64,000 bases of DNA, taken from positions 1-64,000 of the forward strand of contig NZ_VUOK01000019.1 of the NCBI RefSeq assembly GCF_009806555.1, written 5' to 3'. Made by a program: the position numbers and the translations under genes. The notes under the pieces were generated by a model. That model was not told the origin of the DNA and ran no database searches. It saw only the letters and a list, made by a program, of their open reading frames with translations. Source of the DNA: Methylobacterium sp. 2A. Its GTDB lineage: Bacteria > Pseudomonadota > Alphaproteobacteria > Rhizobiales > Beijerinckiaceae. Positions 319 to 25,754 of the stretch are shown here, piece after piece; position 1 is the stretch's first letter, and each line of letters begins with the position of its first letter.

Positions 319-588
319 TCAGGGGACTTGGCTGAGCCGGGGTTCTTTAGCTGGTTCTGACCCGGCGTCCTGTTCGTAGACGGCGGGCGAGCGGTATCCG
401 AGCGCCGAGTGACGGCGCAGCGGGTTGTGGAAGGCCTCGATGTAGCTGAAGATCGCCATGCGCGCCTCCGCCTGCGAGCGGAAGCGGCGGCGGGCCAGTA
501 GTTCGCATTCGAGGGTCGAGAAGAAGCTCTCGACCAGGGCGTTGTCGTAGGCCTCACCGACCAAGCCCATCGCAGGGTTCTGCCCCAT
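319..588 (-). pseudogene. IS3-family transposase orfB, C-terminal fragment
   Basis: The frame encodes the end of an IS3-type integrase-core (rve) transposase. It contains GLVGEAYDNALVESFFSTLE, which supplies the final catalytic Glu, and the usual tail HNPLRRHSALGYRSPAVYE. The rest of the protein lies at 1974-2674, on the far side of the nested IS4-family element. The apparent first residues before the AMGLVG motif come from the IS4 junction and do not belong to the original protein. Confidence 0.9.
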
Positions 589-1973
589 AGGCGCTAAGAT
601 AGTCGTTTTCTGTTGTAATGGATGGCCTGTCGTCGCTTACGTTTTGGGTTGGCGATGCGCGCGTGCAGATCGGCGGAGGCTGTCGTGAGCTGGCACAGGC
701 CGATGGCTGGCGCGATCGCCGATCGGATAGCCTCCAGCGCCAGCCGTAGACCCGCCACAGCGACGGGCTCGCGCCCGCCGCCTCAAGCGCCGGGGGAAAA
801 ACGTCCAGGACATCCCGGCTCAGATCTTCGGTCAGCAGGGCGACCACCAGCAGCCCGTAGAGCCAGCAACGGGTCCCGGCCTCGGTCCGGGTCCGGATCT
901 CGTCGACCCGGATCAGGGATTTCAGCCGCTTGAACGCCCGTTCGATCTGCCAGCGCAGGCGATAGACCGCCAGCACCTCGGGGTCGGGGAAGGCCTCGGC
1001 CGGCAGCGTGGTCGCCAGGATGATCCACTCCGCCGCGATCAGGCTGCGCGGATCGAGCGCATGCTGGCGGCGGCTGGTGTTGCGGCGCAGCGCCTTGGGG
1101 GCGGCCGCGATGGCCTCCGGCGTCTTGCGCTGCGCGATCAGGCGGATCGGGATCGGAGCCTGCCCTCGGCCGGGATCGGCCTGGACCACGACGGCGCGGA
1201 TGGTGCCCGCCTCGGGGGGCGGATCCTGCGTCAGCCAAGCGATGAGGTCGAACGCGTCGCCGGCCGGCGTGGTCAGGCGGACCGACGACCAGCGCATCCG
1301 GACGATGAAGTCGCACCCCGCGTCGCCCTCCATGTCGCCCTCCTGCGCACCAGCCTCCCGCAGGAAGCGCTGCCAGGCTCGGGCGGCGGCATAGCCGCGG
1401 TCGGCGATGCGGATCTCACCCGCGGCCGGCTGCGCGCGGTCCAGGCTCTCCCCGCCGTGCCGGTCGGTGACCTGCAGGCTCGTGAACCGGCCCAGGGCCA
1501 GATCGAACACGCCGTGGATCCGCCAGTCGGTGCCGGAACTGGCCGGCCCGCTCAGGCTGGTGCTGTCGGCCACGCGCAGGACCCGGCCGTGCCAGCACGG
1601 CACCGGGCCGATCCGGCGCAGGAGCTGCTGGCTCAGGGCCTCGAGGAACGGCCCGGTCCGGTGCAGGCGCTGGCTCAGCGCCTCGTCGGTCAGCGCAGCG
1701 ATGCCGTGCGCGCCGGCCCAGGCGGCCACGTGCTGCATTGAGGGGCCGCACGCCCAGGCCAGGGCCAAGCGCAGCAGATCGGTGCCGGAGCGGATCCCCC
1801 GCGGGCGCTGGAACGCCTTGGTCTGCCGGGCCAGGGCCTCGATGTCGAGGTCGGGCGGCAGGCGCGCGAGCAGGTCGGGGAACGCATCGGAGCGATGGGA
1901 AGCGGCGACCAGCATCGCACCGGTGAGTCACAACCCACACCCACCTGTCCAGGCTAACTTAGTGCTTATGGGG
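583..1973 (-). mobile_element. IS4-family element nested in the IS3 element
   Basis: The termini are imperfect inverted repeats. The left end reads ccccataggcgctaagatag (583-602). The right end (1954-1973) gives ccccataagcactaagttag in reverse complement. The insertion splits the IS3 orfB at the codons following Gly-Val-Arg-Pro. The flanking sequences (gggtgtgcgcccc on one side, gggcagaaccct on the other, minus-strand sense) are only loosely alike, so I cannot claim a clean target duplication. The inner transposase is frameshifted near its 3' end. Confidence 0.8.
594..1915 (-). pseudogene. IS4-family transposase, frameshifted near the C-terminus
   Basis: This DDE transposase has the first Asp in RVADSTSLSG, the second in IRIADRGYA, and the complete IS4 signature Y-(2)-R-(3)-E-(6)-K in YRLRWQIERAFKRLK. 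The main frame runs unbroken from 1915 to about 750. It then continues out of frame through serine- and arginine-rich sequence into the IS3 remnant, ending at 554. In a neighbouring frame of the same strand the expected tail appears (LRLALEAIRSAI, then SADLHARIANPKRKRRQ) and stops at 594, right inside the terminal repeat. So an indel of one or two bases near 745-755 has swapped the C-terminal 50 residues. Since the catalytic triad is upstream, residual activity cannot be excluded. Confidence 0.85.
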
Positions 1974-2674
1974 GCGCACACCCGCCTCCCGGCAGTGGTT
2001 CCCGAGGGCCAGCGACGTGTACTGCAAGCCTTGGTCTGAGTGATGGATCACGTCGCGCGGCTTGCGCTGCGTGACGGCCATCTCCAGGGCGTCCAGCACC
2101 AATTCCGCGCGCAGCTGGTTGGCCATCGCCCATCCCACGAGCCGCCGGCTGAAGGCGTCGAATACGACGGCGAGATAGAGGAAGCCGGCCGCCGTCGGTA
2201 CGTAGGTGATGTCCGCGACCCAGAGCCGGTTCGGCGCCTCGGTCGCGAAGTCACGATCGACGAGGTCAGGGGCGGGCCGCGCCTCCGGATCGCGCCGGGT
2301 CGTGATGGGGCCGCCGCGCCGATGGCTGGCCCCAACGAGGCCAGCCGCGCGCATCAGACGGGCGACGCGCTTTCGAGAATGCCGCCCCCCTGCTCGTGCA
2401 GGTCGGCGCGGACGCGCGGCGCGCCGTAGGTCTCATGCGAGCCGAGATGCACGGTGCGGATGCGCTTCAACAGCGCGGCGTCCGCCAGCACCCGCGCCGA
2501 GGGTTCCCGGCTGGCCCAAGCTGAGTCGCCAGCCTTCGACACGCCGAGCACACGGGCCATGGCAGCGATCGGGAAGTCGGCCTGGTTCGCGCTCATGAAC
2601 CGGAAGACCCTGACGGCAGGACCCCGGTCTCCCGCGCGAACCAGACCGTCGCGCGAGATAGGATATTGCTGCAC
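1974..2674 (-). pseudogene. IS3-family transposase orfB, N-terminal and central part
   Basis: The first segment (2674 to about 2380) encodes the HTH_21-type region, with VFRFMSANQADFPIAAMARV and HETYGAPRVRADLHEQGGG. The second (about 2380 to 1974) encodes the start of the integrase core, with NRLWVADITYVPT (first catalytic Asp) and VIHHSDQGLQYTS (second Asp). The two segments are in different frames; a shift near 2375-2390 would restore HSRKRVARLMRAAGLVG. The gene then breaks off after Gly-Val-Arg-Pro at the nested IS4 element. It is non-functional as it stands. Confidence 0.9.
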
Positions 2675-2948
2675 TGACCTTCGGTTCGCGCTCCAGCTTC
2701 AGCTGCCGGTTCTCACGCCTCAGCCGGACGAGTTCCGCGCGCTCGGTCGCCGTCAGATCGGGATGGACCGCTGGCGACTTGGCCTCTCGATGGCCCTCAC
2801 CGCGGTCAGCCTCCGCGACCCAGTTCTGGATGGTCTGGCGCGAGGGCTCGAACTCGCGGGCCAAATCAGTCGGATCGCGCCCGGTGCGGACCAGATCGAC
2901 CATCTGCCGATGGAACTCGGCCGGGTATGCGGGGCGGGTCTTGGGCAT
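2660..2948 (-). pseudogene. IS3-family orfA remnant
   Basis: This is a helix-turn-helix protein typical of IS3 orfA: it starts MPKTRPAYPAEFHRQMVDLV, has a recognition-helix region PSRQTIQNWVAEAD, and a leucine-zipper-like stretch ELVRLRRENRQLKLERE. The normal ending is replaced by KVSAAISYLARR and the frame then runs on out of phase into orfB. In intact relatives orfA and orfB are joined by programmed -1 frameshifting; here additional lesions in orfB make the element inactive. Confidence 0.8.
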
Positions 2949-3083
2949 CGGACAAACACCTCACGCGAAAGCGTTCTCGGTGTCCACCCAACTGGGGCAA
3001 TCCTAATCCCCACTCGATCCATCTAGCCTTCGTCGGCAACGTCCGTGATGTGGTCGGCCTGTCCCTAGCGCCGCCGTATCTAG

Positions 3084-4552
3084 GAGCCTGTCCGAGTAAT
3101 GGGGCTTGCAGCCGGGATTGAGATTGCGAGACCGGAGCCGCTGAGGGCTGATCAGCTGGCTCAGCGGTCGGCCTGTGCCAGCTTGAGGAGGTTGTGAGCG
3201 GTGCAGATTATCGCCCACTCGCTCCGGACCTGATCGAGGCCGCGGAGCAGGAACTGTCGGAAGCCTCGGGCCTGCTTGATCTGCCCGAACACCGGCTCGA
3301 CCACCTGCTTCCTGAGGCGATAGCGGCTGCGGCGGCCAGCTCGTTTCAGGCGGGCGGCCATCGCGCTCATCAAGGGCATCCTGGTCAGCCTCCGGCGGCC
3401 GGCCGCGTTCGCCTCGCCGTGTCGCGCCCGGCCCGGAGCAAGGTAGCCCGTGATGCCTCGCTCCTGCAGCGCGGCGAGGTTCGCCTCGTTGGCAAAGCCG
3501 GCATCGCCCGAGACCTCCCGCGGCTTCTCGCCCGAGATGAGCCCGGACCCCGTCCACAAGCGGCACAAGCGCGCGGTAGTCGGTCGCGTTGGTCACGAGG
3601 CGGTGCGCGACGATCACCTGATGGGCTGCGTCGACCGCGATCTGGCCGTTGTATCCCTGCACGAAGCCGTCACGCGTGGGCAGGATCCGGCTGTCCGGGT
3701 CGGTGAAGTTGCGCTGCGCCCGGTCGGGCGGACCGCCATCCTCGCCGCGCAGTGGCCGCCCCTGCCAACGCATGCCCGACGAGGCGCCCGGCCCGCTCTC
3801 GTCCTCGGGATCGGGCGGATCAGCCGCCTCCGCCTCAAGCGCGGCCTTGGCGGCGCGGATCGCTTCCAGCCGCCGCTGCTTGTCGGCCATCCAGTCCGGC
3901 GTCTCGTCGCCGCGCCGGTCCACGCCATGAGTCCGATCCTCGGCCGCGTCAGCCTCGTGCGCGCGGTCCAACCAGGCTTGGACCTCAGCGGTCAGGGCCG
4001 GCTCGGCCGTCTTCATCCGCCCATAGCTCATCGCTTTGTGGCGGGAGGCGTTCGCCTTCAGCTTGGTCCCGTCCACCGCCACGTGGGCAAACGCGACCTG
4101 ACCGGCCGCCCGACACAGGCGCAGCACCTGCACGAACAGATCCGACAGGGCCACGAGGTGGCGCTTGCGGAAGTCGGCGATGGTGCGGAAGTCCGGACGG
4201 TTCAGGCCGGTGACGGCCATGACATCGACCCGCTCCTCACAGGCCCGGGCGAGTTGGCGCGAGGAGTACAGGCCGCGGCTGTAGCCGTAGAGCAGGAGCG
4301 CCACCATCATGCCCGGATGGTAGGGCGGGTATCCGCGCTCCTCTTTGTAGGTGTCGAGAATGGCCGAGAGGTCGAGCGCCTCCCGCACCGTGTCGCGGAC
4401 GAAGTGCGCCATGTGCCCGGGCGGCACGAACTCGTGCAGCGAGGACGGCAGCAGCCAGCCCTGATCAACATCCCACGCGCGAAACACCTTGGCCATGAGC
4501 CGAGTGAATCACCCCGCAGCCTCGCCGTCGAGACACTTACTCGGACAGGCTC
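3084..4552 (-). mobile_element. IS1182-family element with CTAG target duplication
   Basis: The element has perfect 16-bp terminal inverted repeats. The left end is gagcctgtccgagtaa (3084-3099) and the right end is its exact complement (4537-4552). Both ends are followed by CTAG (3080-3083 and 4553-4556). CTAG is itself a palindrome, so it can be read as a duplicated 4-bp target or as an extension of the repeat. The single transposase gene inside is split by a frameshift. Intact, matching ends with a damaged gene point to a fairly recent arrival. Confidence 0.9.
3161..4496 (-). pseudogene. IS1182-family transposase, frameshifted
   Basis: The N-terminal part begins MAKVFRAWDVDQGWLLPSSL at 4496 and carries the DUF772-like domain (YPPYHPGMMVALLLYGYSRG) and the first catalytic Asp in HVAVDGTKLKANASRHK. 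The central region RDGFVQGYNGQIAVDAAHQV follows. Near 3525-3545 the coding sequence switches frame and continues as GDAGFANEANLAALQERGI and VEPVFGQIKQARGFRQFLLR to a stop at 3161. Read as one frame from 4496 the second half is meaningless. A single base indel in the segment encoding AHLGREAAGG explains this. The family is not known for programmed frameshifting, so I treat it as a pseudogene. Confidence 0.85.
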
Positions 4553-4622: not shown

Positions 4623-5621
4623 CTACACCACGTGGCAGGCGACGTGATGCCCCGGACCAATTAGGCGCAGCTGTGGAGTTTCCGTCAGGCAACGCGGCAT
4701 CGCCTGGCGACAGCGCGCTTTGAACCTACACCCATCACCCGAGGCCGAAGTGCGGTGCAGATCCCACGCCCCGTCGGCCGGGGGCGGTGAGGCCGTTCCA
4801 CTCCGCTGGCGCCCGAGAGAGGGGGAGGAGGCAAACAGCAGGCGTGTGTAGGGATGCGTGGGCGACAGCCAGAACGTGCGGCGCTCGGCGGTCTCGACGA
4901 TCCGGCCGCCATACATGACCGACACCCGGTCCGACATGTGCTCGACCACCGACAGATCATGGCTGATGAACAGCAGGGCGATGCCGCGGCGATCCTGCAG
5001 ATCGGCGAGCAGGTTCAGGATCTGGGCCTGCACCGAGACGTCGAGAGCCGAAACCGGCTCGTCGCACAGGATCAGCTCCGGCTCCACCGCCAGAGCGCGG
5101 GCGATGCCGATGCGCTGGCGCTGCCCTCCGGAGAAGGCGCGGGGATAGCGTGCGGCGGCCTCGGGCGGCAGCCCGACATCGCCGAGGATTCGCGCGACCC
5201 GGCTCGGCCGATCGGCCGCGGAACCGATCCCGTGGGTCTGCAGCGCCTCGGCGATCGACCGGCCGACGAGCCAGCGTGGATCCAGCGCTGCACCGTTATC
5301 CTGGAATACCATCTGGAGCCGATGCCGCTCGCGCCGGATCGCGCGCCGCGACATCCGGGTCAGGTCCACTCCGTTCAAATGGATCGAGCCCCGGCTCGGC
5401 GCGATCAGGCCCATGATGGCGCGGCTCAGGGTGGACTTCCCGCAGCCCGATTCACCGACGAGGCCGTGGGTCTCCCCGGAATGGATCGTTAGCGTCACGC
5501 CATCGACGGCGCGCACGGTGCCCTGAGTGCTCGCGAAGTCGACTGCGAGGTCGGTCACCGCGAGCAGCGGGACCGCCGCGGCGTCAGGGGACGGACCGAG
5601 CCGGTTCCGGCTGTTGGACAT
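4623..5621 (-). CDS. Oligopeptide/dipeptide ABC transporter ATPase, DppF/OppF type
   Basis: This is a cytoplasmic ATP-hydrolysing subunit of a peptide-type importer (about 332 aa). It has Walker A GESGCGKST, Q-loop MVFQDN, signature FSGGQRQRIGIARAL, Walker B LILCDEPVSALD and H-loop FISHDLSVVEH. The C-terminal oligopeptide-transporter extension HPYTRLL and the Cys-containing end (CRFKARCRQAMPRC) match the OppF/DppF class. I place the start at the ATG beginning MSNSRNRLG, which overlaps the end of the partner ATPase gene by 38 bp. A longer in-frame extension upstream lies entirely within the partner gene and looks like shadow. With the partner gene it forms a two-gene minus-strand unit. The binding protein and permeases it presumably serves lie on the plus strand at 11.6-16.8 kb. 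Confidence 0.9.
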   Translation of the reverse strand: MSNSRNRLGPSPDAAAVPLLAVTDLAVDFASTQGTVRAVDGVTLTIHSGETHGLVGESGCGKSTLSRAIMGLIAPSRGSIHLNGVDLTRMSRRAIRRERHRLQMVFQDNGAALDPRWLVGRSIAEALQTHGIGSAADRPSRVARILGDVGLPPEAAARYPRAFSGGQRQRIGIARALAVEPELILCDEPVSALDVSVQAQILNLLADLQDRRGIALLFISHDLSVVEHMSDRVSVMYGGRIVETAERRTFWLSPTHPYTRLLFASSPSLGRQRSGTASPPPADGAWDLHRTSASGDGCRFKARCRQAMPRCLTETPQLRLIGPGHHVACHVV

Positions 5622-6633
5622 GGAGCGTCTTCCAATGGTGACAGGCGACGCGCCCGGCCGCCTTGCCGGTGCGATCGACCGGATCGGGAACCGGAGGGAG
5701 GTCGTGGCAGAGGCCCGTCGCGTGCGGACAGCGCGGCCCGAAACTGCAACCCGGTCCGAGGCCGCCGGGGGCCGGCACCTGGCCGGGGATCTCAGCCAGA
5801 CGTCGCGGACCACTTCCGCCAGAGGGCCGGGCCGCTACGAGTCCGCGCGTGTAGGGGTGGAGAGGGGCGGCAAACAGCGCCTCCACCGACCGGCTCTCGA
5901 CCGCGTGGCCGGCATACATGACCAGGATCCGGTCGGCGTACCGGCGGACCAGTTCGAGGTCGTGGCTGATCAGGAGCACCGCCAGGCCGGTCTCCCGACG
6001 CAGATCGTCGATCAAGCCGAGTATCTCGGCCTGCACCGTCGCGTCGAGGGCCGTGGTCGGTTCGTCGGCGATCAGGAGGGCCGGCGAGCAGGCCAGCGCC
6101 ATCGCGATCACGACCCGCTGCCGCATGCCACCCGAGAGCTGGTGCGGATATCCGGCAAAGACGCGTTCGGGGTCTGGGATTCGCACCTGCGCGAGCAGGG
6201 CGAGAGCCCTGGCCCGGGCCTCCGATCGCGTCACGCGTTCGTGGGCGCGCAGGGTTTCGACGATCTGTGCGCCGATCCTCAGGACGGGATTGAGGGCCGT
6301 CATCGACTCCTGGAAGATCATGGCGGCCCGGCCGCCGCGCAGGCGCCTCAGGGCTTCGCCGCGCAACCGCAGGACATTGCGGCCCTCGAGGCCGACGCGC
6401 CCCTCCGCCCGGATGCCTTGCGGCAAGAGGCCGATCAGCGAAAAGGCCGTCAACGACTTGCCGCAGCCCGATTCCCCGACGATCGCCAGCGTCTCCCCCG
6501 CGGCGAGCGAGAACTCGAGGGCGTGCACCGTGCGGATGTCCCGGCCCCCGTCCCGAATCCAGATCGACAGGCCTTCCACCGCGAGGATCGGCGGCGCATC
6601 GCAGCGGCGTGAAGGTTCAAGCTCAATCGGCAT
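5584..6633 (-). CDS. Oligopeptide/dipeptide ABC transporter ATPase, DppD/OppD type
   Basis: This is the 349-aa partner ATPase. It shows Walker A GESGCGKSLTAFSLIGLLPQ, the MIFQESMTALNPVLRIG Q-loop region typical of OppD, signature QLSGGMRQRVVIAMAL, Walker B LLIADEPTTALD and H-loop ISHDLELV. The C-terminal Cys-rich peptide-transporter motif is present as CSFGPRCPHATGLC. It starts at 6633 and is divergent from the decarboxylase gene across a 278-bp spacer. Together with the downstream ATPase it would form the heterodimeric motor of a peptide-type importer; the remaining subunits are encoded divergently, which is unusual for these normally five-gene operons. Confidence 0.92.
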   Translation of the reverse strand: MPIELEPSRRCDAPPILAVEGLSIWIRDGGRDIRTVHALEFSLAAGETLAIVGESGCGKSLTAFSLIGLLPQGIRAEGRVGLEGRNVLRLRGEALRRLRGGRAAMIFQESMTALNPVLRIGAQIVETLRAHERVTRSEARARALALLAQVRIPDPERVFAGYPHQLSGGMRQRVVIAMALACSPALLIADEPTTALDATVQAEILGLIDDLRRETGLAVLLISHDLELVRRYADRILVMYAGHAVESRSVEALFAAPLHPYTRGLVAARPSGGSGPRRLAEIPGQVPAPGGLGPGCSFGPRCPHATGLCHDLPPVPDPVDRTGKAAGRVACHHWKTLHVQQPEPARSVP

Positions 6634-6911: not shown

Positions 6912-8345
6912 GTGAGTATACAAGCGAAGAGCTTGGCGCGACATGTGCCGAAGGCCTCATTGGCGGACGAGATCGCTCAGGCCCTGAGACGGCAGACGGT
7001 GTCGTTCCACGCGCTGCCGCTCAGCTTCGGTGGATCCCTGCGTGGGTCTGCCCTCAAGGGCGCGTATCAGGAGATCCTGGGGACGCAGTGGCGCGGCGAT
7101 CTGACGGTCGGTGCCCCCTATGTGGATAGTTTCTTCTTCCCGAAGGGCTCGATCGCGCATGCGGAAGCCCGGGCGGCGAGTGTCTTCGGGGCCGATGCGA
7201 CCCTGTTTCTCACCGCGGGGACGACGCTGGCCAACCAGATCGCGGTTGAATCCCTGGCTTCGAACGGGACGCGCGTCCTGATCGACAAGGCGACGCATCA
7301 ATCGATCCATTTCTCGCTCGATCGGCTGCGTGCGCGGGTCGACTACATCGAATCCCGCCTCCTGTGTCTCGATTCCGAGAGGACATCCTTTGCGCTGATC
7401 GATGTGCTGTCCAAGGTCGAGGCGGCCGAGAAGGAGGGCGACCCCTACCGGTTGCTGATCCTCAACGGCCAGTCCTACGACGGGGTGATCTACAATATCT
7501 CGACCATCCTTAGGGCCCTGTCGGAATTCGCTCCGTCGCTCCGCAACATCATCGTGGATGAGGCGTGGGGATCCTGGAGCTATCTCGATCACGAACTCCG
7601 ACAATCGACCGCGATCTACGCGGCCCGGTTGCCGGACCTCGCCGGCCGATACAACATCATCGCCACGCAATCCGCGCATAAATCGTTGAGCGCCCTGCGT
7701 CAGGGCTCCCTGATCCATGCCGTGGGGGATGGCGGCCTCGGCGCACTGGTTCGTGCGGCCCGCTACAAGCATCACACGACATCGCCGAACTTCGCCATCC
7801 TGGCCTCCCTCGATCTGGCGTGCGCGCAGGCCGAGACCGAGGGGGTGCGGCTGGTCGAGCGCGCCATCCGCCTCGCATCCGAACTCCGCGATCGGATCGC
7901 TCACGATCCGCTCCTCGACGCGTACTTCGTAAACGAGACCCCGAGCGTCGAAGGATTGTTTCAAATCGATCCGAGCAAGATATCTCTCAACGTGAGCGCG
8001 CTCACGATCTCGCCGGCAGAGATACGAGATGTCTTGTACAGGGAGTTCGATATCTACATCAATCGGACGACGGTGACGTCGCTGCTGTTGAACTTCCATA
8101 TCGGAATTAACGAGGATGACCTCGACCGTCTGTCCGAAGCCTTGAGGGCAATCCAGAAGCGGTATCAGACGCTTCCCGATCGGAAGCGCTACGCCACCGG
8201 GTTCGTCATCCCCTATCCACCCGGGGTGCCTCTGATGGTGCCGGGCGACGAGATCCGGCCGTCGACCCTGCGGCGGCTGCACGCGCTCCAGGCCTCCGGC
8301 ATCAACCTGTTCACCATGGATCCCTCGGAGCCCCTGCCGCGATGA
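6912..8345 (+). CDS. PLP-dependent Orn/Lys/Arg decarboxylase family protein
   Basis: This 477-aa protein is a fold-type I PLP enzyme of the Orn/Lys/Arg decarboxylase family, of the shorter SpeA/YaaO-like size. Visible features are the GTTLANQIAVESLAS cofactor-binding start, NIIVDEAWGSW carrying the PLP-pyridine Asp near residue 218, and the Schiff-base lysine near residue 256 in SAHKSLSALRQGSLIH. The typical C-terminal domain ends with YPPGVPLMVPGDEI. The expected reaction is removal of CO2 from a basic or related amino acid to give an amine; the true substrate cannot be read from sequence. The start is GTG at 6912, without a strong ribosome site. Its stop overlaps the next start in ATGA, so it is translationally coupled to the adenylating enzyme-transporter fusion. 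It could alternatively act as a non-decarboxylating PLP enzyme. Confidence 0.85.
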   Translation: MSIQAKSLARHVPKASLADEIAQALRRQTVSFHALPLSFGGSLRGSALKGAYQEILGTQWRGDLTVGAPYVDSFFFPKGSIAHAEARAASVFGADATLFLTAGTTLANQIAVESLASNGTRVLIDKATHQSIHFSLDRLRARVDYIESRLLCLDSERTSFALIDVLSKVEAAEKEGDPYRLLILNGQSYDGVIYNISTILRALSEFAPSLRNIIVDEAWGSWSYLDHELRQSTAIYAARLPDLAGRYNIIATQSAHKSLSALRQGSLIHAVGDGGLGALVRAARYKHHTTSPNFAILASLDLACAQAETEGVRLVERAIRLASELRDRIAHDPLLDAYFVNETPSVEGLFQIDPSKISLNVSALTISPAEIRDVLYREFDIYINRTTVTSLLLNFHIGINEDDLDRLSEALRAIQKRYQTLPDRKRYATGFVIPYPPGVPLMVPGDEIRPSTLRRLHALQASGINLFTMDPSEPLPR

Positions 8346-10870
8346 TCCCGCTCGATCGTCTTCGACAGGTCGCTGCGGCCCGCGGCGAATACCCGGCCCT
8401 CGTCACGCCGGATACGGTGCTGACGTGGCACGCCTTCGCGGCCCGGGTCGAGCAGGTCGCGCATGTCCTCGCGGGCACCCTGCGGGAGCGGGAGGCGCGG
8501 ACCGTCTGCAGCATCGCACCGAATTCCCCCGATCTGATGGCGGCGTTCGGGGCGGCCGCGACCCTGAAGCTGACCCATTTCGGTCTGGACTACAGTCTTT
8601 CGGAAGAAGCTCTCCGCCATCTGATCGACGAGACCGACGTCGATGCCCTGATCGTGTCCGCGGGTTTTCTGGCCGAGCGCCACATCGACGTGTGGAAACT
8701 GGCCAACGGGCGGCCGGTGATCGATATCGAGGGGCGGTTGCACGGCGCGTTTCATCTGTCCGACACCGACACGGCCGATACGGGTCCTTCCACAGGCGCC
8801 TTGCCGTCCGCGCCGGCGCGGGCCTTCCGCGCCGTCGCGTTCACCTCGGGCACCACGGGCCGGCCGAAGCCGGTCATACGCACGGCCTCCTTCGACACCC
8901 GGCGCTTCGACTACTTCGCCACCCGCTACGGCTTCTCCGCGTCGGATCGGCACCTCGTGACGATTCCGCTGTACCACGCGGCCGGGAACGGCTGGGCGCG
9001 CCTGTTCCTCAACCTGGGCGCCACCGTGGTCCTGGCCCCCCCGGACGATCCGGCGACCCTGGTCGATCTGATCCGGAGGGAAGCGGTGACCACGAGCGCG
9101 ATGACGCCGCCGGTCCTGTCGGGTCTCCTGCGCCAGATCGCGGAGAGCGGCACGCAGATCGGACCGCACCGGCTCCGGTTCGTCCTCGTGGGCGGCAAGC
9201 ATTTCCCGGTCGGCCTGAAGCAGGAGGCCATCACGGTCCTGGGGCCGGTCGTCCACGAATATTACGGCACGACCGAGACTGGCGTGAACACCATCGCGGA
9301 ACCGGCGGACCTGCTCACCCATCCCGACAGCGTCGGCCGCGCGTATGATGGCAACCGGATCGCCATCGTCGACGGGCAGTCGAAGGCCCTGCCGCCGGGC
9401 CTCGTCGGATCGGTGGCCATCGCGAGCTACATGAACATGGACGGGTATCTTCAGGCGCCGAGCCGGAAGATCCTGCTGCAGGGCGAGCGCTATCTCGTCA
9501 CCTCCGAGGTCGGGCATCTCGACGAGGCCGGGCGCCTCTACGTGCACAATCGGGCGACGGCGGGGGAGACCTTTGACGTCTATGCCCTGGAGAACCTGAT
9601 CCGGGCCATTCCCGGGATCGACGATGTCGCGCTCAATGTCCGCGCCGCGGGGCGCGAGAAGGCAGTCGACATCGCGGTCTCGCTGCGTCGGACCTCGACC
9701 TGGACGAGCCGCTCGCTCGAAGAGCACGTCCGCCACCTGCTCAAGGCGGAGAGCGTGCGGGTCGAGCGCTTCGCGCTGTTGGACGCCATCCCCTACAGCC
9801 CGTCCGGCAAGGTCCGCCACGCCGATCTCGAACGGGCCCTGGCCTCGGTCGAGCCGGCGGTCCGGCGCGGGGTCCCGCGGACCCCGGCTTCGGGGCCGGT
9901 GCAGACCTCGCTCCTGACGGGCGCGCTGCTGCTGACCTTCACGACCCTGTCGTGGGGCGGCATGTTCCCGGTCGCCAAGTCGGCCCTGGAGGCTATGGAC
10001 GGCTTTTATCTCACCCTGTTCCGGTACGGATTCGCCTCCGCGGTGCTGCTGGCGCTGCTCGTCCTGACGGAGGGGTGGGGTGCCCTCGCGCTGGAGGGGC
10101 GCGGCAAGCGCCTGTTCCTGCTCGGGGCCTCGGGCTTCGCGGGCTTCAGCATCCTGGCCTTCCTGGGACTCGCGCATTCGACCCCCGAGCACGGGGCCAT
10201 CATCATGGCCCTGATGCCGCTGATCACCGCCGTGCTGCTCTGGGTCCTGCGCGGCATCAGGCCCGCCGGGGTGACCTTCTGGTGCATCGCGGCCGCCCTG
10301 ACCGGCGTCGTCATCGTGGTGACCAAGGGCGACGCGCGGGCGCTGTTCGGCGGGGCAATCCTGCCGGACCTCGTCATCCTGGCCGGGGCGACGTGCTGGG
10401 TGGCCTACACGATCGGCGCGCAAGCCTTCGCCGACTGGTCGCCGATCCGGTACACGGCCCTGACCGCCGCGCTCGGCACGGTCTCGATCGCGCTCGTCAC
10501 CGTGGTGGCCACCGAACTCGGCTTCAGCACCGCTCCGAGCGCCGCGCAGGTCTGGAGCGTCGTTCCGGAGATCCTGTACCTCGTGGTGATCGCGGCCGTC
10601 CTGGCGGTCTTCACCTGGAACGTCGGCATCGCGCGCCTCGGACCACTCAACGGCGTTCTGTTCATCAATCTCGTGCCGGTGACGGCTTTCGTGATCGGTG
10701 CGGCGCGCGGCAATCCGGCCTCCGCGATCGAGTTGGCGGGGGCCGCCCTCACCATCGCCGCCCTGGTCGCCAACAACCTGAATGCCCGGGGCGTCTTCAA
10801 GGCCTGGCCGCAGCCGCGCCAGGAGCCCCGTCATGAGCCCCGCCAAGTCCGCCGGGCCTTCGCCGACTGA
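8342..10870 (+). CDS. Fusion: AMP-forming acyl/aryl ligase (ANL) + EamA/DMT transporter
   Basis: This 842-aa protein joins two normally separate activities. Residues 1 to about 515 are an adenylate-forming ANL enzyme: P-loop FTSGTTGRPKPV near 168, A5 motif EYYGTTETGVN, and the A10 catalytic lysine in PYSPSGKVRHADLE near 489. The A7 motif is odd: where most relatives have T-G-D, this has VTSEVGHLDEAGRLY, with Glu in place of the ribose-binding Asp. Residues 525-830 are an EamA drug/metabolite-type transporter: about ten hydrophobic segments, beginning LLLTFTTLSWGGMFPVAKSA, in two repeated halves. The tail is Arg/Pro-rich. There is no stop or frameshift between the parts, and the junction is inside a single clean frame. 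I infer activation of a carboxylic acid on the cytoplasmic face coupled to export or import of the product. Confidence 0.85.
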   Translation: MIPLDRLRQVAAARGEYPALVTPDTVLTWHAFAARVEQVAHVLAGTLREREARTVCSIAPNSPDLMAAFGAAATLKLTHFGLDYSLSEEALRHLIDETDVDALIVSAGFLAERHIDVWKLANGRPVIDIEGRLHGAFHLSDTDTADTGPSTGALPSAPARAFRAVAFTSGTTGRPKPVIRTASFDTRRFDYFATRYGFSASDRHLVTIPLYHAAGNGWARLFLNLGATVVLAPPDDPATLVDLIRREAVTTSAMTPPVLSGLLRQIAESGTQIGPHRLRFVLVGGKHFPVGLKQEAITVLGPVVHEYYGTTETGVNTIAEPADLLTHPDSVGRAYDGNRIAIVDGQSKALPPGLVGSVAIASYMNMDGYLQAPSRKILLQGERYLVTSEVGHLDEAGRLYVHNRATAGETFDVYALENLIRAIPGIDDVALNVRAAGREKAVDIAVSLRRTSTWTSRSLEEHVRHLLKAESVRVERFALLDAIPYSPSGKVRHADLERALASVEPAVRRGVPRTPASGPVQTSLLTGALLLTFTTLSWGGMFPVAKSALEAMDGFYLTLFRYGFASAVLLALLVLTEGWGALALEGRGKRLFLLGASGFAGFSILAFLGLAHSTPEHGAIIMALMPLITAVLLWVLRGIRPAGVTFWCIAAALTGVVIVVTKGDARALFGGAILPDLVILAGATCWVAYTIGAQAFADWSPIRYTALTAALGTVSIALVTVVATELGFSTAPSAAQVWSVVPEILYLVVIAAVLAVFTWNVGIARLGPLNGVLFINLVPVTAFVIGAARGNPASAIELAGAALTIAALVANNLNARGVFKAWPQPRQEPRHEPRQVRRAFAD

Positions 10871-10896: not shown

Positions 10897-11514
10897 ATGT
10901 CGACCCACGAACGAACCGCGCCCCAGACCCTTCTCGGCTTCGCCGACGCGCCGACGCATCCGAGCGCGCTCGCCAGCGCCGCGCTGGTGCTGATCGACAT
11001 CCAGGACGAGTATGTCGGCGGTTCCCTGCCGCTGTCCGGGGTCGAGGACGCTGTCGCCGAGGCCAGGACCCTTCTCGACGCCGCCCGGGCCGCGGGGACC
11101 CCGGTGTTCCACATCGTGCATCACGGCAAGCCCGGCGGCCGCCTGTTCGACCCGGAGGGCCCCCACGCCGCGATCGTCCCAGCTTTGCGGCCGGCCGAGG
11201 GCGAGGCGATCATCGCGAAGAGCCTGCCGAACAGCTTCGCCAAGACCGATCTCCACGATCGGATCACGGCGACCGGGCGCAAGGAACTGATCGTCGCCGG
11301 GTTTCAGACGCATCTCTGCGTGAGCGCGACGGTCCGCGCGGCCCTCGATCTCGGCTACCGCACCACGCTGGTCGAGGCTGCAACCGCGACGCGGGACCTG
11401 CCCGACCCCCTCGGCGGCGTTCTGGCCGCCGACGCAATCCACCGGGCGACGATCGCGGCCCTCGCCGACCGGTTCGCCATCGTCGTGCGCCGGACCGAGC
11501 AACTCGCCGCCTGA
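10897..11514 (+). CDS. Isochorismatase-like cysteine hydrolase
   Basis: This 205-aa protein belongs to the isochorismatase-like hydrolase superfamily. The catalytic triad is visible: Asp in LVLIDIQDEY near residue 33, Lys in IIAKSLPNSF near 107, and Cys in GFQTHLCVSATVRAALDLGY near 140. The FQTH-LCV stretch before the Cys corresponds to the conserved cis-peptide and nucleophile elbow. Members cleave amides or related bonds (nicotinamidase, N-carbamoylsarcosine amidase) or vinyl ethers (isochorismatase). The triad supports amidohydrolase activity; the substrate is unknown. It begins 26 bp after the ANL-EamA gene in the same direction and is followed by the periplasmic binding protein gene. Confidence 0.88.
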   Translation: MSTHERTAPQTLLGFADAPTHPSALASAALVLIDIQDEYVGGSLPLSGVEDAVAEARTLLDAARAAGTPVFHIVHHGKPGGRLFDPEGPHAAIVPALRPAEGEAIIAKSLPNSFAKTDLHDRITATGRKELIVAGFQTHLCVSATVRAALDLGYRTTLVEAATATRDLPDPLGGVLAADAIHRATIAALADRFAIVVRRTEQLAA

Positions 11515-11607
11515 CATGGCAGCTTGACCTGGCAGCCGCGCGCTTCGAGGCGGCAGGCAGGCCCTGCGCGGCGAGGCGCGCCCTCTCCACAGAGATCGGA
11601 CACACCC

Positions 11608-13194
11608 ATGGACCGCCGCCAAATCCTGGCTCTCCTGGCCGGGCTCGCACCGATCCCTCTGACATCGGCGGCCCGGGCCGCCGGCGACGGGGCGCGGGAA
11701 CTCCGGCTCGGTGTCGTCACGGCGCCCAATTCCCTGGACCCGCACTTCTACCAGTCGCCCACGAACAATCAGACCCTGAAGCAGATCTTCGATCCGCTGG
11801 TGGTCGAGAATCTCGAAGGCCGGATCAGGCCCTGGCTCGCCGAAACTTGGCGGCCGATCGACGACGTCACCTGGGAATTCAAGCTCCGGCCGGGCATCCG
11901 CTTCCACGACGGGACGCCGCTCGAGCCCGAGGACGTCGCGTTCTCGATCGCGCGGATCCCGGCGGTGCCCAACAGCCCGGGCTCGTTCATCCCGTTCGTG
12001 CGCAACATCGCGGACGTGATCGTCGTCGACCGCACGACGTTCCGGTTCCGCAGCAAGACGCCGAACCCGTTCCTCGACCGCGATTTTACCTCGGTGCTGA
12101 TCCTGTCGCGCAAGATCCACGCGAATGCCGCGACGGCCGATTTCACCTCCGGCCGGTACGCCATCGGCACCGGTGCGTTCCGCTATGCCGGCTTCACGGT
12201 CGGCCAGCAGCTGGATCTGGTCCGCAATCCCGACTTCTGGGGCGCGCCGACGCCCTGGAGCCGCGTGCGGGCGCGCTTCATCGCGGATCCGGGCAGCCGC
12301 GTGGCCGGCCTGCTCGCCGGCGACCTCGACCTGATCGATGCGGTGCCGATCCAGGATGTCGCGCATCTGGCCGCCGGCCCCGGGACGGCGGTCTTCAGCG
12401 CCGCCAGCGCCACCACGGCCTACCTGTTCCCGGACTCGACGCGCGATCAATCGCCCTTCGTGACCGACCGCCAGGGCGCGCCGCTGCCGCGCAATCCGTT
12501 CCGGGATCCGCGCGTCCGGCGGGCCCTGTCGCTGGCGATCAACCGGGCCGGCATCGTCAACCAGCTCCTGGCCGGACAGGGCATCCCGGCCGACCAGTTC
12601 GCGCCGCCGCCAGCCGCCGATCGCCTGCCGGGCCGGCCGCCCCTGCCGTACGATCCCGCCGGCGCGAAGCGGCTGCTGGCCGAGGCCGGCTATCCTGAGG
12701 GATTCGGCCTGACGATCCACGGACCCAGCGGCTTCTTCGCGGGCGACAGCGCCGTCCTGCAGGCGATCGCGCAGGGTCTGTCGCGCGTCGGGATCGAGAC
12801 CCGCGTCGACACGCTGCCGCCGGCAACCTTCTTTGGCCGCGCGACGAACCGGGATTTCTCCCTGTTCCTGACGACCTACGCCGCGACGAGCAGCGTCGAC
12901 TTCCTCCGCCAAGTGGTCCTGACCAAGGATCCCGATCGGGGCACCGGTCCGTTCAACCGGCAGCTTTACTCGAACCCGCGCCTCGACGAGAACGGCCTCG
13001 CGGCGCTGACCGAGATGGAACCCAGCCGCCGCCTGAGCCTGACGCACGCGGCCCTGACCGAACTTGAGAGCGATCTCGGCATCGTCCCGGTCTTCTATCC
13101 GCGCTTCAACTGGGCCGGGCGCCGGTCCCACGTGACGTTCGAGCCGGGCAACCCGTTCGGGCACACCAACGCGCTCTTCGCGAAACCCGTTTGA
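11608..13194 (+). CDS. Peptide-type ABC transporter substrate-binding protein (SBP_bac_5)
   Basis: This periplasmic binding protein of the DppA/OppA/NikA class has about 528 aa. I start at the ATG for MDRRQILALLAGLAPIPL, because this gives a signal peptide with twin arginines and an Ala-rich cleavage region (SAARAAGD). The longer upstream frame has no such features. Family hallmarks include the N-terminal APNSLDPHFYQSP, then FDPLVVENLEG and the FKLRPGIRFHDGTPLEPEDV motif. The internal DPRVRRALSLAINRAGIV is the usual hinge-region helix. It would deliver a peptide or other amide-like ligand to the permease pair at 14.9-16.8 kb. It sits in the middle of the enzyme genes, between the two hydrolases, which ties transport to their chemistry. 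Confidence 0.92.
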   Translation: MDRRQILALLAGLAPIPLTSAARAAGDGARELRLGVVTAPNSLDPHFYQSPTNNQTLKQIFDPLVVENLEGRIRPWLAETWRPIDDVTWEFKLRPGIRFHDGTPLEPEDVAFSIARIPAVPNSPGSFIPFVRNIADVIVVDRTTFRFRSKTPNPFLDRDFTSVLILSRKIHANAATADFTSGRYAIGTGAFRYAGFTVGQQLDLVRNPDFWGAPTPWSRVRARFIADPGSRVAGLLAGDLDLIDAVPIQDVAHLAAGPGTAVFSAASATTAYLFPDSTRDQSPFVTDRQGAPLPRNPFRDPRVRRALSLAINRAGIVNQLLAGQGIPADQFAPPPAADRLPGRPPLPYDPAGAKRLLAEAGYPEGFGLTIHGPSGFFAGDSAVLQAIAQGLSRVGIETRVDTLPPATFFGRATNRDFSLFLTTYAATSSVDFLRQVVLTKDPDRGTGPFNRQLYSNPRLDENGLAALTEMEPSRRLSLTHAALTELESDLGIVPVFYPRFNWAGRRSHVTFEPGNPFGHTNALFAKPV

Positions 13195-13244
13195 ACGGGT
13201 CTCGCGCGAGCCGCCCCGGTTTCACGACCCAGACAGGATCGTCC

Positions 13245-14675
13245 ATGCCCGCCTTCGCCGAATACGCCGACCACGATGCGGTCGGACTAGCCGAGCGCAT
13301 CCGCCGCCGGGCGGTCTCCGCCGCTGAGGTCGTGGAGGCGGCCCTGGCGCGGATCGCCGCGGTCAATCCGGCGATCAACGCGGTGGTCGATCTCTTCGCC
13401 GACGAGGCCCGCGCCGCGGCGGACGGACCCTTGTCTGACGGTCCCTTGGCCGGCGTCCCGTTCCTGCTGAAGGATCTCAACATCCAGTATGCGGGGCACC
13501 GCACCACCAACGGCAGCCGGTTCTGGTCGGAGCACAGGGCCGTCAAGGACTCCACCGTGATGGAGCGGTACCGCAGGGCGGGGCTGGTCACGCTCGGCTT
13601 CACCAACACCGCGGAACTGGGTCTCGCCTGCGAAACCGCGCCCGCCGCGCACGGGCCGACCCGGAATCCCTGGGCCCTGGCGCGCAGTGCGGGCGGCTCG
13701 TCCGGCGGGGCCGCGGCCGCCGTCGCGGCGGGCCTCGTGCCCGCCGCCCACGCGACCGATGGCGGCGGATCCATCCGCATCCCCGCCTCGAACTGCGGCG
13801 TGTTCGGGCTGAAGCCGACCCGGGGTCGAAACCCGTACGGGCCGGATCTGGGGGAGGGCTGGAACGGGCTCTCCGTCCACCATGCCATCACGCGCTCCGT
13901 CCGCGACAGCGCCGCCCTGCTCGACATCACGCACGGTCCCGCGCCCGGTGATCCCTACGCGGCGCCACCTTTCGAAGGCCGTTTCATCGACGCCGTCCGC
14001 GTGGATCCCCAACCCCTGCGCGTCGCGTTCCAGACCGTCGATCACGAGGGCCGGGCGATCGATCCGGCCTGCGCAGAGGCCGTCCGATCTGCCGCCGCCC
14101 TGCTCTCCGAGTTGGGGCATCGGGTCGAGGAAGCGCGGCCCAGGGCCGATGGCGGCGCGATGAAGTGGGCGACCCGCATCATCGTGGCGGCGAACGTCGC
14201 GAACGTGCTCCGCCTCCGCGCGGAGGCGCTCGGCCGTTCCCTCCGGGAGGACGATGTCGAGCCGATCACGTGGCTCTGGGCCGGGGAATCCCGGCGCTGG
14301 TCGAGCGACGACCTCGCCCGCGCGATCTGGACGATCCACGGGCTCGCGCGGGAGCTCGGACGCTTCTTCGAACGCTACGACGTGCTCCTGACCAGCACCT
14401 TCGCGGCACCGCCCCTGTTGCTCGGGACGGTGGACATGCAGTCGCGCGATCTCGACGCCTTCTACGAGGACCTCCGACGCTACAGCGCCTTCACCTCGCT
14501 CTACAATTGCACCGGCGTTCCGGCGGCGAGCGTTCCCTTCGCCTGGGAGGCGCGGGGGCCGATCGGCGTGCAGATCGCCGGCCGCTTCGGTGCGGATGCC
14601 ACGGTGCTCGCGCTGTCCGCGCAGATCGAGCGCGCGCGGCCGTGGCAGCATCGCCGGCCGACGCCCCCAGCCTGA
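13245..14675 (+). CDS. Amidase (amidase-signature family)
   Basis: This cytoplasmic amidase has about 476 aa, with the complete Ser-cisSer-Lys triad: Lys near residue 77 in PFLLKDLN, cis-Ser in SAGGSSGGAAAAVAAGLVPA near 150, and nucleophile Ser in DGGGSIRIPASNCG near 175. The sequence resembles the 6-aminohexanoate cyclic-dimer hydrolase branch more than GatA, because no aspartyl/glutamyl-tRNA amidotransferase partners are nearby. I choose the ATG of MPAFAEYADHDAVGL, since it begins just before the conserved first helix; an in-frame start 54 bp earlier overlaps the preceding gene. It hydrolyses a carboxamide, probably of the ligand imported by the neighbouring ABC system. Confidence 0.9.
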   Translation: MPAFAEYADHDAVGLAERIRRRAVSAAEVVEAALARIAAVNPAINAVVDLFADEARAAADGPLSDGPLAGVPFLLKDLNIQYAGHRTTNGSRFWSEHRAVKDSTVMERYRRAGLVTLGFTNTAELGLACETAPAAHGPTRNPWALARSAGGSSGGAAAAVAAGLVPAAHATDGGGSIRIPASNCGVFGLKPTRGRNPYGPDLGEGWNGLSVHHAITRSVRDSAALLDITHGPAPGDPYAAPPFEGRFIDAVRVDPQPLRVAFQTVDHEGRAIDPACAEAVRSAAALLSELGHRVEEARPRADGGAMKWATRIIVAANVANVLRLRAEALGRSLREDDVEPITWLWAGESRRWSSDDLARAIWTIHGLARELGRFFERYDVLLTSTFAAPPLLLGTVDMQSRDLDAFYEDLRRYSAFTSLYNCTGVPAASVPFAWEARGPIGVQIAGRFGADATVLALSAQIERARPWQHRRPTPPA

Positions 14676-14920: not shown

Positions 14921-15892
14921 ATGACCGTCTGGATCCCCGGCCGCCTGGTTCAAGCAGGCTGCGCGGTGATCGCGATGACGCTCATCGTCTTCGCCAGCCT
15001 GCATCTCATCGGGAACCCGATCGACCTTCTGCTCCCGCCCGATGCGGACGCGGCCGAGCGCGCGCGTATGATCGCGGCCTTCGGTCTCGACCGGCCGCTT
15101 GCGCTCCAGTACCTCGCGTTCGTCGAGCGCGTGCTCCACGGTGATTTCGGGCTGAGCTTCGTCTACGGCACGCCGGCCGTGGCGCTCGTCCTGTCGCGCC
15201 TGCCGGCTACGCTGGAACTCGCCGTCCTTGCGACGGCGCTGTCGATCGGCCTCGGGATCCCGCTCGGCCTCGCGGCGGCGCTTCGGCAGAGTTCGCCGGT
15301 CGGGCAAGCGCTCACGGGCTTGAGTACGCTGAGTTACAGCCTGCCGGCCTTCTGGACCGGCCTCCTCCTGATCCTCGTCTTCAGCGTCGTTCTCGGCTGG
15401 CTCCCGAGCACCGGACGGGGGCAGACGGTTGCTATGGCGGGCGGCGAGTGGTCGTTCGTGACGCTTGACGGGCTGCGCCACCTCTGCCTGCCGGTTCTCA
15501 ACCTCGCGGTCTTCAAGACCGCCCTGATCCTGCGCCTGACGAAATCCGGAGCGCAAGGTACGCTCGTCGCCGATCACATCCGCTTTGCCCGCGCGCGGGG
15601 CCTCACGACGTGGCGGATCGTGTTCGTCCATATCCTCCGCACGATCCTCGTCCCCATCATCGCGGTGCTGGGTGTCGAATTCGGCGCCACGGTCGCCTTC
15701 TCGGTCGTGACAGAAAGCATCTTCGCATGGCCAGGGATGGGGAGCCTCTTCGTGGAGAGCCTGCACACGCTGGATCGGCCGGTGATCGTCGTCTACCTCG
15801 CCACCGTCGTCCTAATCTTCATCGTGTCCAACATGGCGGCCGACGTCCTGGTCCGGCTGGCCGATCCCCGCATCAGAACCGGTCCGCTATGA
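14921..15892 (+). CDS. Peptide-type ABC transporter permease, DppB type
   Basis: This inner-membrane permease has 323 aa. It shows the N-terminal first membrane segment (GCAVIAMTLIVFASLHLIGN), the periplasmic loop with GLDRPLALQYLAFV, and the inner-membrane binding-protein-dependent transport domain. The EAA-like loop is ARARGLTTWRIVFVHILRTI, followed by the conserved ESIFAWPGMGSLFVES. It starts with ATG at 14921 and its stop overlaps the start of the second permease (ATGA at 15889). It works with the ATPases at 4.6-6.6 kb and the binding protein at 11.6 kb. Confidence 0.92.
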   Translation: MTVWIPGRLVQAGCAVIAMTLIVFASLHLIGNPIDLLLPPDADAAERARMIAAFGLDRPLALQYLAFVERVLHGDFGLSFVYGTPAVALVLSRLPATLELAVLATALSIGLGIPLGLAAALRQSSPVGQALTGLSTLSYSLPAFWTGLLLILVFSVVLGWLPSTGRGQTVAMAGGEWSFVTLDGLRHLCLPVLNLAVFKTALILRLTKSGAQGTLVADHIRFARARGLTTWRIVFVHILRTILVPIIAVLGVEFGATVAFSVVTESIFAWPGMGSLFVESLHTLDRPVIVVYLATVVLIFIVSNMAADVLVRLADPRIRTGPL

Positions 15893-16773
15893 TCCCGACC
15901 CTGCTTGGGCGCCGGGCGTCCGGCGATGGGGGCGGCTCAGCCGGGCGGTCGCGCTTCGCCTTCTGCGCGGCGATCGCTCTCCTAGGTCTCAGTCTGGCGG
16001 CCGTTGGAGCGCCCTGGATCGCGCCGCACGATCCCTACGACCTCGCCCGGATCGACATGCTGGACGGCCGGCTTCCACCGGGGTCCACCGGCGCTTCCGG
16101 ACCGTACTGGCTCGGCACCGACGAGCAGGGGCGGGATCTTCTGTCCGCCATACTGTACGGTTTGCGCGTCAGCCTGGGCATCGGCATCGGCTCGGCCCTC
16201 GCCGCTGCCGTGCTCGGGACGGCCTTCGGCCTCTGTCTCGCGTGTGCCGGCCCTCGTCTGGCTCGTGTCCTGGCCCGCGCCGTCGACCTTCAATTGGCAG
16301 TCCCCTCGATCCTCCTCGCGATGATGATCATCGCGGTGCGGGGAAAGAGTGTCGTCAACGTCTTCTTCGCTCTGATCCTGGTCGAGTGGGCGTATTATGC
16401 GCGGGCCGCTTATGCCGCGGCCGTCGCTGAACTAGGCCGGCCCTATATCGAAGCGACGGAAGCGCTCGGGGTCGCGCCGTGGCGCATCGTCCTCCAGCAC
16501 CTGCTCCCGAACTGCATGCCGCCTCTCACCGTGATCCTGACAGCGCAGATAGCCCGGGCAATCTCGCTCGAAGCGACGCTTAGCTTCCTGGGGGTCGGCG
16601 TTCCTATCACCGAGCCCTCGCTCGGACTCCTCATCGCGTCCGGAAGCCAAAGTTTCTTTTCCGGCCATTATTGGATGATCATTTTTCCTGGATTGTTCCT
16701 CGTGCTCCTCATCGTATCCCTGAATGTCATGGGCGACGAAATCTCGATCCGCATCGATGGATCGTTGCGATAG
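15889..16773 (+). CDS. Peptide-type ABC transporter permease, DppC type
   Basis: This second permease subunit has 294 aa. Features are the early segment APWIAPHDPYDL and the conserved GTDEQGRDLLSAILYGLRVS of DppC/OppC proteins, then several membrane spans. The EAA loop is IEATEALGVAPWRIVLQHLL, followed by ISLEATLSFLGVG. The start is the ATG overlapping the stop of the upstream permease. Open sequence extending further upstream in this frame lies within the other permease and is not coding. It completes a five-part importer, split into two divergent operons. Confidence 0.92.
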   Translation: MIPTLLGRRASGDGGGSAGRSRFAFCAAIALLGLSLAAVGAPWIAPHDPYDLARIDMLDGRLPPGSTGASGPYWLGTDEQGRDLLSAILYGLRVSLGIGIGSALAAAVLGTAFGLCLACAGPRLARVLARAVDLQLAVPSILLAMMIIAVRGKSVVNVFFALILVEWAYYARAAYAAAVAELGRPYIEATEALGVAPWRIVLQHLLPNCMPPLTVILTAQIARAISLEATLSFLGVGVPITEPSLGLLIASGSQSFFSGHYWMIIFPGLFLVLLIVSLNVMGDEISIRIDGSLR

Positions 16774-16909: not shown

Positions 16910-17760
16910 GGGTGTGAACCGAACCAAGGCATTGCGAGGTCTTTGGTTTTGTGATTCCAGGCAGCCGTTTTGCAGAGTGGAGGCTGCGATGGCGGACCTG
17001 TTCTGGCTCTCGGATGAGCAGTGGGCGGTGATGGCCCCGTTCATGCCCAAGGATCAGCCCGGACCGGAGCGGAAGGACGACCGGCAGATCATCTCCGGCA
17101 TCCTGCACGTGCTCACCTCCGGCTGCCGCTGGCGCGATTGCCCCGCCGCCTACGGCCCGCGCACCACAGTCTACAACCGCTTCAACCGCTGGTCGCGGCG
17201 CGGTTTCTGGAAGGCGATGCTGGCGGCGCTGGCCAAATCCGGATGGGCCGGCGACGCAGCCGCCCTCGATAGCACCTATGTGCGGGCTCACCGCTCGGCC
17301 CACGGCGGCAAAGGGGGGCGAAAGCACAGGCCATCGGGTGCTCGCGCGGCGGCCAGACGACCAAGATCCACGCGCTCACCGATGTCCTCGGCCGCCCCGG
17401 CGTCCTGCTGCTGACACCCGGCAACGCCAGCGACGTGACGACCGCGCCTGCCGTGTTGGCCGAAGCGCCCGGCCGGATCCGGCGTCTGGCCGCAGACAAG
17501 GGCTACGACGCCGATTGGCTGCGTACCGATCTGCGGGCGCAGGGCATCACGCCGGTCATCCCGGGCAAGCGCGGCCGCAAGCGGAAGATCCGCCACGACA
17601 AACGCCGCTATCGCGAGCGCTGGCGGATCGAGGCCGCCTTCAATCGCCTCAAGGACTTCCGCCGGATCGCCACCCGCTACGACAAGCTCGCCCGCAACTA
17701 CGCGTCAGCTCTCGCTCTAGCTGCCGTCATCGCCTTCTGGTGCTGATCGAGTCCAGACCC
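16910..17760 (+). mobile_element. IS5-family element (IS427-like group)
   Basis: Inverted repeats bound the element: gggtgtgaaccgaa at the left and, in reverse complement, gggtctggactcga at the right. TA flanks both ends (16908-16909 and 17761-17762), as expected for a TA target duplication. It encodes a transposase in two overlapping frames joined by a slippery run. The right end lies directly against the terminus of an IS701-family element, which suggests sequential insertion into a hot spot downstream of the permease operon. Confidence 0.85.
16989..17746 (+). CDS. IS5-family transposase, two frames joined by a slippery frameshift
   Basis: The first frame starts MADLFWLSDEQWAVMAPFMP at 16989 and contains the DUF4096-like region (SGCRWRDCPAAYGPRTTVYN) and the first catalytic Asp in ALDSTYVRAHR. 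The second frame continues from about 17320 as AQAIGCSRGGQTTKIHALTD and LAADKGYDADWLR (second Asp), then RRYRERWRIEAAFNRLKDFR (Glu) to a stop at 17746. The switch falls at AAAGGGGGG (17310-17318), a typical slippery sequence, and IS427-group elements normally use this device. I therefore regard it as an intact transposase made by programmed frameshifting, not a broken one. Confidence 0.8.
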
Positions 17761-17809
17761 TAGCACTACTTTGGCAGATTGATTTCAGGGTGGCAGGTTG
17801 AGATCGGCG

Positions 17810-25515: not shown

Positions 25516-25749
25516 ATGCCGATCATCACCCAGGCCAAGAGCGCCGCCGTCGTCATCGATGACGACAAGTGCATCGCCGAGAAAGGCTGCCGCGTCTGCG
25601 TCGACGTCTGCCCCCTCGACATCCTCGCGATCGACGAGACCCGACAGAAGGCCTACATGAAATACGATGAATGCTGGTACTGCATGCCGTGTGAAGTCGA
25701 TTGCCCGACCAACGCAGTGAAGGTCAATATTCCTTACCTTCTGCGGTGA
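25516..25749 (+). CDS. Two-cluster 4Fe-4S ferredoxin, AprB-like
   Basis: This 77-aa ferredoxin-like protein has two cysteine sets: CIAEKGCRVCVDVCP (spacing 5-2-3) and CWYCMPCEVDCP (spacing 2-2-3). The widened first loop (Cys-x5-Cys) is also seen in the AprB subunit, but AprB is about twice as long, with a C-terminal tail wrapped around AprA that is missing here. It follows the flavoprotein gene by 27 bp and is expected to pass electrons to or from the flavin. Confidence 0.9.
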   Translation: MPIITQAKSAAVVIDDDKCIAEKGCRVCVDVCPLDILAIDETRQKAYMKYDECWYCMPCEVDCPTNAVKVNIPYLLR

Positions 25750-25754
25750 GCGTC

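Follow-up and report, generated by a model that had tools for sequence, protein, structure and literature searches.

A gene set for a putative carrier-free amide pathway

The stretch of DNA analysed here, positions 1 to 64,000 of contig NZ_VUOK01000019.1 of Methylobacterium sp. 2A (hereafter the window, 64,000 nucleotides in length), contains a single reading frame in which an adenylate-forming enzyme of the ANL superfamily is joined to a permease of the EamA family, and this frame directly follows a gene for a pyridoxal 5′-phosphate (PLP)-dependent enzyme of the Orn/Lys/Arg decarboxylase type. In the model proposed here, to which we assign a probability of roughly one half, the gene set would specify a carrier-free amide pathway, in which the PLP enzyme supplies an amine, the ANL enzyme joins that amine to an acid, and the fused EamA permease exports the resulting amide. 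A broader version of this model is offered more tentatively, namely that the PLP–ANL–EamA trio may constitute an undescribed class of carrier-free pathways spread among unrelated proteobacteria, in which a ligase with a rebuilt A7/A8 lid passes its product to a fused exporter.

The fusion protein

The central features of the gene set, all on the forward strand, are as follows.

6912–8345, forward strand: PLP-dependent enzyme of the Orn/Lys/Arg decarboxylase type, 477 residues (PF01276, E-value 7.6e-40), overlapping the fusion gene by four bases
8342–10870, forward strand: ANL–EamA fusion, ATG start, 842 residues, no internal stop, stop codon included in the coordinates
8342–9856, forward strand: ANL (adenylate-forming) half, residues 1–505 (Pfam AMP-binding, folded in the model)
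8843–8869, forward strand: P-loop (A3) TSGTTGRPK, residues 168–176 (alignment)
9500–9508, forward strand: A7 motif T-S-E (residues 387–389) replacing T-G-D, with Glu389 in 44 of 44 fused relatives
9551–9592, forward strand: shortened A8 loop R404–E417, 14 residues (alignment)
9809–9811, forward strand: A10 lysine K490 (alignment)
9854–9898, forward strand: linker, residues 505–519, predicted to be disordered (AlphaFold2 model)
9899–10867, forward strand: EamA permease half, residues 520–842 (two EamA stretches and ten predicted membrane helices)

The Pfam AMP-binding domain is recognized at residues 8–370 with an E-value of 1.5e-53 and a score of 182.4 bits against a cut-off of 29.9, and the P-loop, the A5 motif (EYYGTTE) and the A10 lysine are all present, which places the N-terminal half within the ANL superfamily. 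The C-terminal half carries two EamA stretches (E-value 5.8e-21, the best at residues 526–660), and the AlphaFold2 model of the whole chain, which has a mean pLDDT (predicted local distance difference test) of 86.8 and a pTM (predicted template modelling score) of 0.61, shows a folded ANL part, a segment at residues 505–519 with pLDDT below 50, and ten membrane-type helices predicted between residues 520 and 815. In its paired EamA repeats and ten predicted helices, this half resembles the EamA (DMT) permeases, from the known members of which the window's permease differs by the ANL enzyme on its N-terminus. A search of the EamA half by sequence at E 0.1 gave no solved relative save for one unrelated-looking match at 0.08. 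An earlier note on this DNA, made from the sequence alone, had proposed one frame linking an ANL enzyme to a ten-span EamA permease, and on this the reading frame, the Pfam matches and the model agree; the P-loop, A5, A10 lysine and the Ser-Glu at A7 that it named were likewise all located.

Fused and unfused relatives

A homologue search, in which 7998 candidates were scored, returned 163 matches, of which 120 were listed, and 44 of these 120, the window's own protein included, contain both domains. A domain re-scan of fused relatives recovered AMP-binding together with EamA in 42 of 42, and among 24 fused proteins that were aligned, identity to the window protein ranges from 58% to 40%. At the level of loci, a genome scan of contigs yielded 24 related loci, with the ANL enzyme fused to EamA in 12 and a separate EamA gene near the ANL gene in the remaining 12. 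Of the separate genes, nine lie downstream, two are divergent and upstream of the PLP gene (L038 and L039), and the last (L044) lies about 2.8 kb downstream, with 30% identity. The idea of an activating enzyme tethered to a permease, raised in the earlier note, is thus supported by an EamA partner that is either fused or nearby at these loci. The same note knew of no common protein of this architecture: rare it is, while uniqueness is ruled out by the fused homologues present in the databases. No description of the ANL–EamA architecture was found in the literature searched, from the reach of which most subscription papers fall outside.

In a tree of 76 ANL domains, the 29 fused rows group together with two changes of state, of which the starred branches force one, the unfused P0055 being placed in an open fork of the fused rows. 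This tree, which was built by a quick method without bootstrap, makes a single origin of the fusion possible.

Rebuilt A7 and A8 motifs

The motif counts refer to the 44 fused and 75 unfused relatives among the listed homologues (P0057 belongs to neither group), and were compared with nine controls which, after removal of the window's own copy, leave eight real paralogues, motif-filtered from 17 places; the domain scan took in six of these eight. The P-loop is kept in all 44 fused relatives, and the A10 lysine in all 44 fused and all 75 unfused ones. The A7 Glu at residue 389, present in every fused relative, is a trait of the family. The A8 loop is 14–15 residues long in the 44 fused relatives versus 19 in the eight paralogues, and its usual glycine is absent. 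One of the eight paralogues, L060, has Ser rather than Gly before the A7 Asp. The Ser-Glu at A7 that had attracted attention from the outset is therefore real, but it is family-wide and accompanied by a shortened A8 loop, and the enzyme, whose A7 reads T-S-E and whose 14 A8 residues lack the usual glycine, departs from the canonical acyl-CoA (coenzyme A) ligase motifs.

The upstream PLP enzyme and the conserved trio

The PF01276 match of the upstream enzyme reaches 137.4 bits against a cut-off of 27, and H256-K257, D216 and H129 are invariant in the 23 sequences compared and fit a decarboxylase-type active site. We take these to be the PLP lysine following its His, and the Asp and His at the cofactor. 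The closest known systems are the Orn/Lys/Arg decarboxylases and Rv2531c; the decarboxylase chains aligned in the top rows measure 692–771 residues (the exception being 2x3l, with 420) versus 477 in the window's enzyme, from which flanking domains are thus missing.

The ANL gene is immediately preceded by a PLP gene of this type in 23 of the 24 loci, L044 being the one without it; in L030 (Xenorhabdus) its reading frame is split into open reading frames (ORFs) of 447 and 95 residues (L030:1287-2952). The neighbour listing comprised ORFs of at least 70 residues and covered L036–L038 in part. Having been right about the fusion and the A7 motif, the earlier note overlooked this gene, which is the main partner. 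In P0057, the PLP and ANL parts are fused in one chain, and one genome of the phylum sample has PLP, ANL, EamA and LysR genes consecutively. No PLP or EamA relatives were found at 26 control loci of other ANL genes, the flanks of which are short, given that the four with a listed length span 3.9–4.5 kb. A LysR gene is found around 22 of the 24 family loci; the window's first 20 kb yielded none. The LysR genes beside most relatives suggest that expression of the latter would be induced.

Some further observations concern these families. Elsewhere in the window's own genome, OKR_DC_1 matches again and far more strongly (495 bits, G000:C8:138411-139805), so that the copy considered here is not the sole enzyme of that fold. 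In P0132 (905 residues), OKR_DC_1 is listed in one protein with PF13538, PF12705 and PF13361, an odd combination. A plasmid of Streptomyces sp. NBC_00525 (L050:5947-7918) encodes a DMT permease on its own, which shares 47% identity with the EamA half; a LysR gene adjoins it, and the annotated stretch contains no AMP-binding gene.

Proposed pathway and alternative explanations

The ANL half would be located in the cytoplasm, because it needs ATP, and would adenylate a carboxylic acid there. The PLP enzyme would provide an amine by decarboxylation, and the amine would attack the activated acid to form an amide in a step requiring neither CoA nor a carrier protein. Export of this amide would then probably fall to the EamA half.

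By Foldseek, the solved folds nearest to the ANL half are those of the amide bond synthetases McbA (6sq8, 6h1b) and ShABS (8ppp, 8pyx, 8pyy), at ranks 1–13. The identity to these enzymes is about 23%, and the ANL fold and the kept A10 lysine are shared with them; McbA likewise lacks the A8 glycine. The window's enzyme differs from both in its shorter A8, its T-S-E at A7 and its fused permease. According to the accessible part of the report on McbA, adenylation and amidation take place within a single active site (PMC6282839). For the pathway as a whole, a parallel is offered by E-64 biosynthesis in fungi, which proceeds without a nonribosomal peptide synthetase and in the description of which the terms “amide bond synthetase” and “PLP-dependent decarboxylase” each occur (PMC12568646); that pathway is fungal, no permease fusion figures in the accessible part of its description, and it is likened to the present one by description and not by homology.

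Several observations weigh against the amide pathway. By VIA-align, MenE ties with McbA as the nearest fold; the ANL half has His212 where McbA, in the accessible portion of its report, has Asp201; and the family of the isochorismatase-fold hydrolase encoded behind the fusion is found in as many as 75 of the 111 genus genomes, which weakens this hydrolase as a specific marker. The first two also favour an unlikely alternative, in which the ANL half is in essentials an acyl-CoA ligase, EamA moves its acid substrate or product, and the PLP enzyme belongs to the same route, catabolic or biosynthetic. It is consistent with this alternative that His212 is kept, that several databases label the relatives acyl-CoA ligases, and that the 26 of the 50 listed Foldseek rows below rank 24, with E-values that are nearly equal, include CoA ligases. 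It is opposed by the lid, since the short A8 loop without its CoA-ligase glycine, together with the loss of the A7 Gly-Asp, sets the ANL half apart from MenE and 4-coumarate-CoA ligase, and by the NCBIfam search, where all 25 listed models (of 86) stayed below their cut-offs (the best gave 181 of 476 bits). EamA is, moreover, an exporter-type family.

A second alternative, which we regard as no more and no less improbable than the acyl-CoA ligase, assigns another role to the PLP enzyme: the ANL enzyme would join an activated acid or amino acid to a partner from elsewhere, e.g. an amine of general metabolism, with the PLP enzyme modifying the product or making the acid part. The gene trio is compatible with such a scheme too; the results fix neither the order of steps nor the substrates, and the PLP and ANL genes are separate in all listed proteins save P0057. 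However, the PLP enzyme retains its decarboxylase-type active site, and a decarboxylase reaction yields an amine.

A catalytically dead ANL half that works as a ligand sensor or a scaffold for the permease is very improbable. The altered A7 in every fused relative and the poorly recognized C-terminal domain of the ANL half would agree with such a loss, but the P-loop and the A10 lysine are kept throughout the 44 fused relatives. The A7 Asp of ANL enzymes binds ribose, and the Glu in its place could still do so. Finally, a fusion created by a lost stop codon, in particular by the sequencing error near residue 515 that the earlier note had considered, is practically ruled out, as fused relatives are too numerous (44 of 120 listed, 42 of 42 re-scanned, 12 of 24 loci).

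If the amide pathway is correct, synthesis and secretion would be combined on one polypeptide as a compact make-and-export unit, and a small-molecule product would be expected in the medium, which makes the system tractable via its exporter fusion. The ANL half would also be a natural variant with which to study what makes the A7/A8 lid choose between thioester and amide formation, and the gene set points to a small-molecule pathway that has no description in the literature searched.

Distribution and mobility

With the cut-offs applied, the ANL family profile picks out one of 111 genomes of the genus, one of 385 of the class and two of 398 of the phylum, the own genome being included each time, and a scan of 60 relatives and the own genome gave, outside the latter, weak generic ANL matches. 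The module is nonetheless shared by many unrelated bacteria: it occurs in Azospirillum, Vibrio, Photobacterium, Aeromonas, Xenorhabdus and Providencia, and in unfused form in Erwinia, Cedecea and Chromobacterium; the named sources among the listed homologues are Azospirillum, Photobacterium, Vibrio, Aliivibrio, Xenorhabdus, Providencia and Chromohalobacter. When the Cedecea trio was used as a DNA query, no Escherichia coli copies came up, such a search being blind to more diverged ones. In the window, the gene set is flanked on either side by transposase-type genes, within 554–4496 (DDE_Tnp_1, rve, HTH_Tnp_1, DUF772) and 16914–19009 (DUF4096, DDE_5), and 5.9 kb of the window are 92% identical to a Methylobacterium plasmid. 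The module is likely to be mobile, given its rarity in the genus and the flanking transposase genes, and horizontal transfer of the gene set would be the natural reading of its sequence context.

Neighbouring genes

The genes next to the PLP gene and the fusion are the following.

4623–6633, reverse strand: two ABC ATPase genes, divergent from the PLP gene (PF00005, PF08352; second start unsure)
10897–11514, forward strand: isochorismatase-fold cysteine hydrolase, 205 residues (PF00857)
11524–13194, forward strand: peptide-type ABC substrate-binding protein (PF00496)
13191–14675, forward strand: amidase (PF01425), with a 71% relative in L024, L025 and L034
14921–16773, forward strand: two ABC permease genes, ORFs 14921–15892 and 15610–16773 (PF00528; second start unsure)

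A relative of the hydrolase is found in 11 of the 12 fused loci and, weakly, in one of the 12 unfused ones. In L024, L025 and L034, the hydrolase, the binding protein and the amidase are 64–71% identical to those of the window, and two Azospirillum plasmids have, by annotation, the same extra gene set around their fusion, the binding protein included. The window's hydrolase is 67–70% identical to the copies at the Azospirillum loci versus at most 59% to the best other copies of the genus listed. In the amide pathway, this hydrolase may cleave or take back the amide, a role that may also fall to the amidase and the peptide-type ABC importer found in Azospirillum and in the window's genome. The segment 6650–6912, which separates the PLP gene from the divergent ABC ATPase genes, has a G+C content of 46% versus 71% for the window and is likely a control region. 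Farther downstream, the ORF at 25701–26711 is composed of HEAT repeats.
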